Shown here in pieces: positions 13,175 through 22,979 of a stretch of 64,000 nt of DNA. Made by a program: the position numbers and the translations under genes. The notes beneath the pieces are model-generated. The model was not told the DNA's origin and did no database searches. It saw nothing but the letters and a program-made list of their open reading frames with translations. The DNA is from Halomicrobium urmianum (GTDB lineage: Archaea > Halobacteriota > Halobacteria > Halobacteriales > Haloarculaceae), in NCBI RefSeq assembly GCF_020217425.1, contig NZ_CP084090.1, positions 434,001-498,000 on the forward strand. The letters are read 5' to 3'. The number at the start of each line of letters is the position of its first letter. The stretch's first letter is position 1.

Positions 13175-14191
13175 ATGTCAAAAGACAACAGCCGAACCCA
13201 GATGAAGCCTGAACGGGCCGTAAACCGATACCTCACAGAAAAGAAACCGGAGTGGGCTGACTCATCGTACTACAACAACAGCTCTACTCTCAACCGATTC
13301 CTCGAATTTTGTGAGGAGGATGGCTTAGACAACATTTGTGAGATAGATGGCTTCCATATCTCTGACTTCAAGCAGTATCGACGCGAGAGCGGAATCAACG
13401 AAGTGACCCTCTACAATAACCTGAGTTCACTTCGGGCATTCCTCAGCTGGTGTAGCTCAATGGGGCTTGTCGAGTCGTGGATAGTAGACGATATGGTTCT
13501 GAACGAACCGGACGACAAGGTACGCTCCGAGATGCTGGATGCCGACCGTGCAGACCACATTCTCGACTACCTCGATAACTTCGAATACGCTACTCTTCGG
13601 CACGCTCTCTTTGCATTACTGTGGGATACTGGGATGAGACTTGGGGCAGCCCGCGCGGTCGACGTTGAGGATTACAACTCTACGGATCAGTACATTGAGG
13701 TCGCTCATAGACCGGACAAGGGAACCCCACTGAAGAACAAGCATGACGGTCAGCGAGAGATTAACCTGCACTCGTGGGCTTGCGAGATTCTCGACGATTA
13801 CCTCCAGATGCATCACGAGGATGTGACGGACGACTATGGACGCACACCACTGTTCTCGTCTCGGCATGGCCGTATGGTGCGGTCAAACTTGCGGATGCAC
13901 ATACGGCGGCTTACGCGCCCATGTCACTACACAGGGGAGTGTCCCCATAGACGGGATCTGGATGAGTGCGAAGCAAACCAAGACTACCGCGCTGCCTCGA
14001 AGTGTCCTGGTTCAGTCAGTCCCCACCCTATCCGACGTGGAGCGATCACTCATTGGTTGAACGAAGGACACCGGAAGGAACTCATCAGTGAGCGGATGAA
14101 TGTCTCCGTAAACACGCTTGATGAACACTACGATGCCCGAACTGAGTCGGAGAAGCGGAACCTGCGTCGAGAAATGTTCAAGATGGACTGA
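13175..14191 (+). CDS. Tyrosine recombinase / integrase (338 aa)
   Basis: The N-terminal SAM-like core-binding domain (residues ~10-110: LNRFLEFC, FKQYRRE) is followed by the catalytic domain with the first Arg in DTGMRLGAAR (~152), the HxxR box in SPHPIRRGAITHWL (~287-300) and the nucleophile Tyr in TLDEHYDAR (~322). A Cys-rich insertion (CHYTGECPH ... CEANQDYRAASKC) between them is probably a zinc knuckle. The gene carries out site-specific integration and excision of the surrounding element at tRNA-Val. Its base composition is clearly more AT-rich than the flanking chromosome. Start ATG 13175 lies ~120 bp inside the left att. Length is typical of the family. Confidence 0.92.
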   Translation: MSKDNSRTQMKPERAVNRYLTEKKPEWADSSYYNNSSTLNRFLEFCEEDGLDNICEIDGFHISDFKQYRRESGINEVTLYNNLSSLRAFLSWCSSMGLVESWIVDDMVLNEPDDKVRSEMLDADRADHILDYLDNFEYATLRHALFALLWDTGMRLGAARAVDVEDYNSTDQYIEVAHRPDKGTPLKNKHDGQREINLHSWACEILDDYLQMHHEDVTDDYGRTPLFSSRHGRMVRSNLRMHIRRLTRPCHYTGECPHRRDLDECEANQDYRAASKCPGSVSPHPIRRGAITHWLNEGHRKELISERMNVSVNTLDEHYDARTESEKRNLRREMFKMD

Positions 14192-15192: not shown

Positions 15193-15224
15193 ATGGGTTG
15201 GGGCGGATTTGAACCGCCGACGTC
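15193..15224 (-). repeat. Right attachment site, inside the tRNA-Val gene
   Basis: The second copy of the 32-bp direct repeat. It covers the discriminator base, the 3' acceptor strand, the whole T-arm and the variable region of the tRNA, so the inserted element restored the 3' half of the gene and the tRNA stays intact. Confidence 0.85.
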
Positions 15225-15268
15225 CTCCGTGTGAAGGAGGTATCATAACCGGACTAGATCACCAACCC
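15194..15268 (-). tRNA. tRNA-Val (anticodon CAC)
   Basis: Read on the minus strand, the 75-nt sequence folds as a complete cloverleaf. The acceptor is GGGTTGG with CCAACCC and discriminator A. The D-arm is followed by the anticodon stem CCTCC/GGAGG with loop TTCACAC, giving anticodon CAC for the GUG codon. The T-arm is GGCGG TTCAAAT CCGCC. No intron is present and the CCA is not encoded. It serves as the integration site for the element immediately 3' of it. Confidence 0.93.
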
Positions 15269-15906: not shown

Positions 15907-15989
15907 TATAGTAGAAATTGAACGCAATGACACACTCGAGGGGCACCCGGAAGCCCCTCGACGTGTAAATCGTTTCAATTTCTACTATA
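15907..15989. mobile_element. MITE copy 1 with TA target duplication
   Basis: A 79-bp element (15909-15987) with terminal inverted repeats TAGTAGAAATTGAA / TTCAATTTCTACTA, flanked on both sides by TA. The interior folds into a long imperfect hairpin topped by TCGAGGGGC/GCCCCTCGA. A second copy lies at 22230-22309. It has no coding capacity. The TA duplication and short terminal repeats point to mobilisation by an IS630/Tc1-type transposase; no such gene is present in the window. It sits ~115 bp past the nuoN stop. Confidence 0.75.
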
Positions 15990-21513: not shown

Positions 21514-21830
21514 TGTCCGTCACCTCCCTCGTCGTCGCGCTTGGCCAGCATGACCGACCCGTCCAGCGCCGCGTCCAGCAGCACGGCGATCAGGAGGAAG
21601 GCCGCGAGGAAGCCCTCGCTGGCGACCGCCGCGCCGTCGCCCGTCACGGCCGCGGGGTCGATGTCGAACAGCGCCGCGCCGATGCTGCGCACGATGGCCG
21701 CGTCGGCGCCGAAGCCAGTCGGCTCCGGGAACGACGCGTTCAGGAAGGCCGCCGCCATGACGACGAACAGCGCGACGGCGGCCAGCCCCGGCAGCAGCGT
21801 CGACTCGGTGCCGAGCTGGGGGCGGCTCAT
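21510..21830 (-). CDS. nuoJ2: Complex I subunit J, C-terminal half (106 aa)
   Basis: In haloarchaea the NuoJ subunit is encoded by two small genes. This second half has two hydrophobic helices, VALFVVMAAAFLNASF near residue 20 and FLAAFLLIAVLLDAALDGSV near 80, ending with acidic hydrophilic residues. It overlaps nuoJ1 and nuoK by four bases each, confirming co-translation. On its own it is weakly conserved; the operon position decides the call. Confidence 0.85.
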   Translation of the reverse strand: MSRPQLGTESTLLPGLAAVALFVVMAAAFLNASFPEPTGFGADAAIVRSIGAALFDIDPAAVTGDGAAVASEGFLAAFLLIAVLLDAALDGSVMLAKRDDEGGDGQ

Positions 21831-22099
21831 GTCGCCACCTCGAGGACGCTCTCGTCTTTCCGGGTGAGCATCACCGCGAAGGTGACCAGGATCAACACGC
21901 CGCCGACGTACACGAGGACCTGCATCGCAGCGACGAACTCGGCGCGCAGCATCACGTAGTGGACCGCGACGCTGAGCAGCGCCACGCCCAGCAGCAGCGC
22001 CGAGTGCCAGACGTCGCGCACGAGCACGACGCCCAAGCTGCTCGCGACGGTCACTATCGCGAACAGCGCGAACGCGATCGTCTCGTACAGTCCCATCAT
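21827..22099 (-). CDS. nuoJ1: Complex I subunit J, N-terminal half (90 aa)
   Basis: Carries the conserved NuoJ N-terminal helices: ETIAFALFAIVTVASSLGVV, VRDVWHSALLLGVALLSVA and the pi-bulge helix region AMQVLVYVGGVLILVTFAVMLT with its Tyr/Gly/Gly signature. The upstream distance to nuoI (419 bp) is far larger than any other spacing in the operon and is filled by a MITE and a duplicated nuoI end, so this and later genes may depend on read-through or on a new promoter. Confidence 0.92.
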   Translation of the reverse strand: MMGLYETIAFALFAIVTVASSLGVVLVRDVWHSALLLGVALLSVAVHYVMLRAEFVAAMQVLVYVGGVLILVTFAVMLTRKDESVLEVAT

Positions 22100-22220
22100 T
22101 AGTGGACTCTCCCGTCGGCTGGCTTTTGAATATTCCTCTTTCGTCTCGTCACAGCCGGGAAATGGCGCCGATACCAGCCCCTAACGAATCGAGCGTGCGC
22201 GAAACAAAACTGACCCCCGG

Positions 22221-22378
22221 TTACTGGTATAGTAGAAATTGAACGCACTGACACACTCGAAGGGCACCCGGGGCACCCTTCGATGTGTGAATAGTGTCAA
22301 TTTCTACTATAGTCGATGTCGCCCTCGCCGATCCACGCGCCCCGGTCGGGCTCGCGGGACTGCAGCGGGTGGGTGTCC
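22221..22378 (-). pseudogene. Duplicated 3' fragment of nuoI, split by MITE copy 2
   Basis: Bases 22312-22378 repeat, with few changes, the last ~22 codons of nuoI (PLQSREPDRGAWIGEGDIDY); the intact gene has an extra Gly-Glu in the same place. The stop-proximal codons lie on the other side of the MITE (22221-22229). The fragment cannot be translated as a gene. It is either the original nuoI end, displaced when a longer segment was copied in upstream, or a later duplication. Confidence 0.75.
22228..22311. mobile_element. MITE copy 2 with TA target duplication, inside a duplicated nuoI 3' end
   Basis: An 80-bp element (22230-22309) related to copy 1 along its whole length, with the same terminal repeats TAGTAGAAATTGA / TCAATTTCTACTA, flanked by TA on both sides (22228-22229 and 22310-22311). 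Removing the element plus one TA joins TTACTGGTA to GTCGATG and restores an uninterrupted nuoI C-terminus ending Asp-Ile-Asp-Tyr-Gln-stop, so the insertion site is defined to the base. In the apical stem TCGAAGGG/CCCTTCGA one G-C pair of copy 1 is an A-T pair here. Confidence 0.8.
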
Positions 22379-22517
22379 TCCACCTTTTTGCTTCGTCGGG
22401 TCGCCTGCGGCGACCGCTCCTCGCAAAAACGTGGGCGAAAAACGACTCGTGACTCGCTTCGCTCGTCGCGGTGAACCGCCTCGCGCGCGGAGTGCGCTCG
22501 GCGGATGCTGGAACCGA
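22379..22517. other. Spacer between duplicated and intact nuoI ends
   Basis: About 140 bp with no gene, rich in short inverted motifs such as GGTCGCCTGCGGCGACC and a segment with CCTTTTTGC ... GCAAAAACG arms. Similar strings are scattered in haloarchaeal intergenic DNA. It is foreign to the operon and probably arrived with the duplication. Confidence 0.45.
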
Positions 22518-22979
22518 CTACTGGTAGTCGATGTCGCCCTCTCCCTCGCCGATCCACGCACCCCGGTCGGGCTCGCGGGACTGCAGCGGGTCGATGTCCT
22601 TGTACCAGGGGACGTTCTTCAGTTGCTCCTTGTTGTAGGCGAAGTCGTCCTTCGTGTCCGCGGTGAATTCGAAGTTCTGGGTCAGTAGGATGGCGTCGAC
22701 GGGACAGACCTCCTCGCACAGCCGGCAGTAGATGCACTGGCCGATGTGGAGGTTGTACTGCTCGCCGTTGCGCTGATCGTCGGTGACGATGTGGATCGTA
22801 TTGTTCGGACAGACGTTCTCGCACTGCCGACACCAGATACACCGCTCCTGGCTGAACTTGTGGACCCCGCGGAAGCGCGGGCTCACCTCCGGAGTGGTCT
22901 CCGGGTACTCGACGGTGAACGTCTCACCGTCCAGCGCGTGCTTCATCGTCGTTGCCATTGATTTGAGGACGCCGATCAT
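22518..22979 (-). CDS. nuoI: Complex I subunit I, 2x[4Fe-4S] ferredoxin-like (153 aa)
   Basis: A peripheral-arm subunit that holds clusters N6a and N6b. Two canonical motifs are present: CIWCRQCENVCP (~residues 48-59) and CIYCRLCEEVCP (~87-98). A strong Shine-Dalgarno GGAGGTGA precedes the ATG. The C-terminal ~22 codons are duplicated downstream. The internal Gly-Glu repeat in GEGEGD marks the difference from the duplicate. Length is normal for archaeal NuoI. Confidence 0.95.
   Translation of the reverse strand: MIGVLKSMATTMKHALDGETFTVEYPETTPEVSPRFRGVHKFSQERCIWCRQCENVCPNNTIHIVTDDQRNGEQYNLHIGQCIYCRLCEEVCPVDAILLTQNFEFTADTKDDFAYNKEQLKNVPWYKDIDPLQSREPDRGAWIGEGEGDIDYQ

Follow-up and report, generated by a model that had tools for sequence, protein, structure and literature searches.

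Duplicated gene tails next to a palindromic element: a probable target duplication at the nuoI stop codon of Halomicrobium urmianum

Introduction

In Halomicrobium urmianum (Haloarculaceae), the complex I genes nuoI and nuoJ are separated by 418 bp. A second copy of the last ~76 nt of nuoI lies within this gap; it begins 138 bp past the nuoI stop codon and is split by a TA-flanked MITE. This arrangement raises the question of how the 3' end of an intact gene came to be present twice and what kind of DNA lies between the two copies. A first-pass annotation of the window, by which we mean the whole stretch of 64,000 nucleotides that was analyzed, regarded the locus as a local duplication of the nuoI tail which is linked with the MITE and splits the complex I operon. 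The key feature, on which that annotation was silent, is the 138 bp between the tails, a repetitive element that is accompanied by a tail duplication in other genera too.

Results

Organization of the nuoI-nuoJ region

The nuoI gene was assigned by an NCBIfam profile search (TIGR01971 NuoI, E 1.1e-32, 112.1 bits versus a cut-off of 113.05) and is 94% identical to that of Halomicrobium katesii (L036; NCBI family Haloarculaceae), which is among the nearest named relatives of the window. The features of the region are as follows.

22518..22979, minus strand: nuoI, complex I subunit I, intact, 153 aa (NCBIfam TIGR01971 NuoI)
22518..22600, minus strand: tail copy 1, the last 83 nt of nuoI including the stop codon; duplicated stretch (repeat comparison)
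22380..22517, minus strand: palindromic terminator-like element, 138 bp (sequence reading and core pattern)
22436-22517, minus strand: left hairpins of the element, ending in TTTTTCG (sequence reading)
22380-22435, minus strand: element core CCCACGTTTTT-hairpin-AAAAAGGTGG (core pattern with 14 strict copies in the genome, versus 0 for the reversed control)
22221..22379, minus strand: tail copy 2, distal and non-coding, directly after GGTGG (repeat comparison)
22228..22311, no strand assigned: MITE with TA duplication, 84 bp; element proper about 22230-22309 (inverted repeat)
22125..22145, minus strand: promoter-like box GACGAAAGAGGAATATTCAAA upstream of nuoJ (common to relatives)
21827..22099, minus strand: N-terminal part of nuoJ, 90 aa (NF005024 NADH dehydrogenase subunit J, E 1e-47)

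The duplication of the C-terminal nuoI codons described by the first-pass annotation was confirmed. The direct repeat (22312-22379 versus 22533-22600) comprises 68 nt at 90% identity, and a second comparison yielded 58 nt at 94.8% (E about 1e-24). On the minus strand, nuoI ends in GGCGAGGGAGAGGGCGACATCGACTACCAGTAG while the distal copy reads GGCGAGGGCGACATCGAC-TA-MITE-TA-CCAGTAA. Thus, removal of the MITE together with one TA brings Asp-Tyr-Gln-stop back in frame, as had been stated. The distal copy is 6 nt shorter than copy 1, a difference that had been ascribed to a Gly-Glu gained by the intact gene. Since the intact nuoI tails compared carry the longer form, it is instead the distal copy that lost 6 nt (Gly-Glu).

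By its inverted ends, its TA duplication and its occurrence in several copies, the 84-bp repeat interrupting tail copy 2 is a MITE. Its 28-nt arms are 79% complementary, TA is present at both sides, and 25 places in the genome were counted. A second TA-flanked copy is located at positions 15908-15988 of the window, directly downstream of the final gene in the complex I cluster. At seven other nuoI loci (L091, L063, L014, L022, L094, L099, L312), a long tail copy was found around the palindromic element, and in the spacers of these seven loci no comparable MITE was visible. The proposed tie between MITE and duplication did not withstand this comparison; the MITE is a separate, ordinary event, later than the tail duplication, and thus a late passenger.

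The annotation had further stated that 419 bp were added and that the expression of nuoJ-N had possibly become separated from that of nuoA-I. The former value is too high because relatives of the same genus already show nuoI-nuoJ distances of ~150-380 nt. As to the latter, the box GAAAGAGGAAT(A/C)TTCAAA upstream of the window's nuoJ, with its GACGAAAGAGGAATATTCAAA sequence read by us as a putative promoter, is also present in relatives lacking the element core (L007, L002, L019, L084, L105), which leaves the idea of a new separation unsupported. A box of a broader type was matched in 43 of 81 nuoJ loci and is, therefore, not universal. As the box is common to element-free relatives and the spacer exceeds 49 nt in 71 of the 81 loci where nuoJ was found, a boundary of transcription between the two genes was probably in place before the element inserted. 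In several genera (L012, L058, L062, L064, L101, L108 and others) 1.4-2.4 kb lie between the two genes; hence, this spacer seems to take inserts often.

A family of palindromic elements

The element has the layout hairpin-TTTTTCGC-CCACGTTTTT-hairpin-AAAAAGGTGG. It is about 85-150 bp long, encodes no protein and possesses a fixed right end (AAAAAGGTGG), at least one hairpin and a ragged left end; its palindromic core comprises ~44-70 bp, and imperfect ends (CCCACG / GTGG) were seen. The set of elements was defined by the exact pattern CCACGTTTTT-N20-50-AAAAAGGTGG, so that decayed copies were missed. This pattern matched 14 times in the window's genome and was present in 68 of 116 genomes of the family, whereas the reversed control gave 0 matches in each of them. 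In an order-level draw of 195 genomes, 33 with the pattern were counted, 23 of 27 within the family and 10 of 168 outside it. No exact match to TCGCCCACGTTTTT-N20-50-AAAAAGGTGG was detected in viral contigs. An Rfam search of the window revealed only a tRNA at the gathering score and no family for the element; at eight loci, a tRNA apart, nothing was found above that score.

Folding of the core surpassed that of shuffled versions preserving base composition, not dinucleotides (median z -3.9, 94% below -2), and the inner stems vary among copies yet mostly still pair. The element contains two T runs resembling haloarchaeal terminators, and 134 of 172 copies read exactly TTTTTCGC upstream of CCACG. 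Since T stretches ending at C are outlined as the intergenic termination motif of Haloferax volcanii (PMC7237163), it is likely, by analogy, that the element acts as a terminator. Two copies of the window's genome (L114 at C1:713510 and L118 at C1:2337594) have ~160 identical bp upstream plus the core in common; CTGTACTGACC-like sequence occurs at both ends, and they perhaps represent a larger mobile unit.

Repeats flanking the element and their junctions

For the study of flanking sequences, distinct pattern matches with at least 350 nt upstream and at least 250 nt downstream were collected. After copies identical in upstream sequence and core had been merged, and those with short flanks removed, 172 copies remained, which are not a random sample. 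In 82 of the 172, a repeat of the upstream sequence follows directly after GGTGG, compared to 11 of 849 mismatched pairs of flanks used as a control. Within the window's genome, 6 of the 14 strict copies (L112, L113, L115, L116, L117, L122) are followed by a repeat of the DNA that precedes them. In 78 of 82 cases, the stop codon of a co-directional open reading frame (80 codons or more) falls within the repeat or close to it, and 70 of these 78 repeats span the stop codon. Because the duplicated stretch usually includes the stop, the gene stays intact.

The median start of the repeats lies 50 nt ahead of the stop codon (10-90% range 33-81), and the duplications measure 41-113 nt (10-90% range), with overall limits of about 30-156 nt. 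On the right, the repeat starts 0-10 nt after GGTGG, an end for which the search pattern itself selects; the left end is variable. Some repeats continue into the left hairpin, by which the left boundary is blurred. Junctions were analyzed for 73 of the 82 repeats, three array-internal ones having been dropped and the others discarded for a poor diagonal. In 26 of these 73 usable cases, GGTGG is followed by three target bases, one extra base and then the target again. The same form was exhibited by 17 of the 49 junctions left after removal of similar ones, with C (12), T (4) or G (1) as the extra base and a purine as the next target base in 17 of 17. Over the 49 distinct junctions, no strong target consensus emerged, none of 28 positions holding more than 0.30 bit of information.

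The remaining 90 of the 172 copies (e.g., L111, L119, L120, L121) have no flanking repeat. In 41 of them, the stop codon of a long convergent open reading frame is situated 0-12 nt from the right end (0-6 nt in 39 of the 41), a spacing observed for only 1 of 82 repeat-bearing copies and for 48 of 688 control windows. Our guess is that these are old copies whose terminator is shared by two convergent genes.

Recurrence across genera and gene ends

Copies of the nuoI tail were also identified in Halorarius litoreus (L091, 81/81 nt), Halorientalis salina (L063, three copies), Halosimplex pelagicum (L094), a Halovenus MAG (L099) and the genomes G026 (L014), G019 (L022), G027 (L312) and G023 (L160); shorter ones occur at L008/L061 and L011. 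The order between the nuoI copies is hairpin, T run, second T run, hairpin and AAAAAGGTGG or a variant of it, followed by the tail copy. At eight nuoI loci including that of the window, the copies within a genome are 87-100% identical, compared to 74-92% for copy 1 between genomes. The assembly artefact that had been named as a possible refutation is argued against by this recurrence in independent genomes.

Grouped by C-terminal similarity, the 73 repeat-bearing loci fell into 38 gene groups, 19 of them with more than one locus. In some groups a single junction is found across genera; four loci of one gene have theirs at 58-59 nt, counted back from the end of the stop codon. By the same count, another gene has six junction distances (34, 37, 43, 53, 55 and 68 nt); the distances are 25, 47 and 68 nt for sufS and 19, 79 and 86 nt for nuoI. 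From such different distances within one gene group, it appears that individual gene ends were struck repeatedly. Tandem arrays whose unit consists of gene tail and element were detected as well. Ten near-identical units with a period of 171 bp are present in G020 (L258, G020:C1:2702800-2706400), and G003 contains three units at 182 bp and an array of 154-bp period around 819106-819960.

Occupied and empty sites

Four sites were compared in detail among G000 to G006, of which G001 belongs to the same genus as the window's genome. The genes are presumably gatA, gyrA, purM and sufS, names which we assigned from the look of their translated tails. The presence or absence of the element, the duplication and its position can be observed directly at these sites. 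At gatA, G003 possesses an element of 83-84 bp between 48 identical bp (48/48 nt) that span the stop codon, while G001, which is nearly identical to G003 there, has neither element nor duplication; neither was visible in G002, G004, G000, G005 and G006. The gyrA site is occupied in G002, with a repeat of 73/74 nt, and uninterrupted in G001 and G003; no core was found in G004-G006, and G000 has a different copy without a repeat. In the empty gatA and gyrA relatives, there is no element core and the second tail continues into the same downstream sequence.

The purM site of G003 carries an element with 151/156 nt, and G000 a decayed one (108/123 nt) at the same junction. The duplication is lacking in G001, G002, G005 and G006, and the sequence of G004 is masked at this place. 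At sufS, G001 and G003 are occupied, G002 retains only a remnant of the left hairpin, and G000 and G004-G006 have no core; the sufS element of G003 contains ~65 extra bp within the core relative to that of G001 (L281 versus L280).

Gain of the element at gatA in G003 and at gyrA in G002 would be the parsimonious reading of these sites, with loss via the repeats as the alternative. Since recombination between direct repeats could empty an occupied site, gain is argued here from parsimony only.

Discussion

We propose, with a probability of about three in four, that the tail of nuoI was duplicated by a non-autonomous mobile palindromic element inserting at the nuoI stop codon. The repeats behind 82 of 172 copies, the occupied and empty sites of sister genomes and the repeated targeting of the same gene ends together make it most likely that the second nuoI tail arose as a long target duplication when this element inserted. 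From such sites we infer a chemistry of insertion in which the right end of the element would be joined to a point ~30-80 nt within the gene and the left end to one immediately past the stop codon, the stretch between the two being duplicated. The route might lead through a displaced flap or through repair synthesis at a staggered nick. The gene would thereby obtain a new 3' end of terminator-like character. Subsequently, the repeats could recombine with each other and so enlarge the unit to arrays or remove it; this may also keep the copies alike. Into the distal tail of the window, the MITE would have inserted afterwards.

Several observations stand against the insertion model. Of the 172 copies, 90 are without a repeat, and the position of 41 of these near a convergent stop is not predicted by simple insertion. 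The left boundary blurred by some repeats and the lack of a close parent copy for the gatA element count on the same side, as does the negative search for an RVT_1 reverse transcriptase. In addition, the purM junction is common to G000 and G003 although four other genomes (G001, G002, G005, G006) are without the duplication, so that losses or the reuse of one site are needed.

How well do other explanations account for the same data? It is conceivable that a gene 3' end together with the element was imported from another strain via one homologous arm, the gene tail, and one illegitimate joint at GGTGG, the resident tail being left behind. The element is found on the same genes in several genera, and G003 yielded no other copy closer than 94% identity to its gatA element and thus no recent parent of it, which gives import some room as an explanation. 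Nevertheless, the two gatA tails of G003 agree at all 48 nt and are similar to G001, and a constant illegitimate joint at GGTGG is unexpected unless the imported fragment ends there, which renders import unlikely. Replication slippage at a pre-existing, non-mobile terminator palindrome, by which tail and terminator were copied in tandem and the second unit was later truncated, would fit the tandem arrays, the repeats extending into the left hairpin and the stems that vary but still pair. We consider it rather unlikely, since a slip cannot create a core and the empty gatA and gyrA relatives have none, the second tail running straight into the same downstream sequence.

Retroposition, i.e., copying of the element from RNA by target-primed reverse transcription as in SINEs, would account for the fixed right junction, the ragged left end, the long and variable target duplications and the extra pyrimidine near the right junction. 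A search limited to the reverse transcriptase family RVT_1 found no match in 28 of 28 genomes tested, G000-G003 among them, while three control genomes were positive. Simple retroposition has been set aside on this ground as quite improbable, and a DNA route by a nick or displaced flap near the gene end is favored. As to the linkage of the duplication with the MITE that was suggested initially, the position of the MITE within the distal copy and the frame restored by its excision with one TA speak for it. It is nonetheless very improbable given that duplications without a visible MITE exist in other genera and that the nuoJ box is common to element-free relatives. Of that interpretation, a duplicated tail later split by a MITE stands; the role of the MITE and the gain of Gly-Glu do not, and the new operon break is not supported.

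On the reading preferred here, insertion of a mobile palindromic element, a wider proposal can be made, to which we would give somewhat less than an even chance. Haloarculaceae may possess a so far undescribed, RVT_1-free route of transposition that puts a protein-free hairpin element at gene 3' ends; its right end would lie in the final 30-80 nt of the reading frame, its left end immediately behind the stop codon. In this process, 30-150 nt would be duplicated and the gene would survive and gain a terminator, with three target bases plus an extra pyrimidine as the signature. The window contains a tyrosine integrase-like gene (13175-14191, Pfam Phage_integrase) ~1 kb from a tRNA gene (15194-15268). 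It was dropped as a candidate driver because the insertions share no common core.

What the element has in common with known systems, and what separates it from them, can be stated for several groups. Like the bacterial REP/BIME sequences with their RAYT transposases, it is a short intergenic palindrome, present in many copies, sometimes terminator-like or arrayed, and non-autonomous. To our knowledge, long duplications of the neighboring gene tail are not a known feature of REPs. These are also smaller than the core of ~44-70 bp, having 20-40 bp; most of them carry a GTAG or CGTC tag (PMC3733652). The SMRs of Haloquadratum walsbyi are summarized as transposase-free sequences of about 110 bp with an enigmatic mode of movement (PMC3119063). 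They insert without duplicating their target, and members of the SMR-A group go into PATEs and IS605-type elements (PMC3119063). By contrast, the element studied here makes long duplications at gene ends (repeats at 82 of 172 copies, 78 of the 82 at gene ends). Still, SMRs are the nearest described haloarchaeal elements.

The element also resembles MITEs in being short and non-autonomous and in having inverted terminal parts. MITEs, on the other hand, produce short target duplications of fixed length, and an assignment to this class failed at the three polymorphic sites, where the duplications are 48, ~74 and 156 nt long. SINEs have a fixed 3' end, a ragged 5' end and variable target duplications. 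SINE-like retroposons would resemble the element in these respects, but its right end is one for which the search pattern selects; they differ by the reverse transcription for which the RVT_1 search found no match in the 28 genomes. Integrative elements with an attB site in a gene 3' end use one gene and one att core via an integrase; in common with the element, they duplicate the gene 3' end and restore the gene. An element of the integrase type was rejected, since dozens of unrelated genes are involved, the 49 junctions have no common core and the element is too short to contain an integrase. Among short palindromic non-autonomous mobile elements, its distinguishing feature is the long duplication spanning the stop codon. 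In the open literature searched, no title or abstract start describing this element was found, which does not prove the absence of such a description.

For annotation, the results imply a warning because the extra tails can resemble gene fragments, frameshifts or assembly errors. If the proposed insertion is true, stray gene-tail fragments and short tandem arrays would be explained, and the element would be a source of new terminators. It would also suggest that archaea have an unfamiliar insertion chemistry, one whose target duplications are long and variable. Many haloarchaeal genes would then owe their 3' ends to a mobile element whose insertion leaves the gene unharmed because the tail is duplicated.
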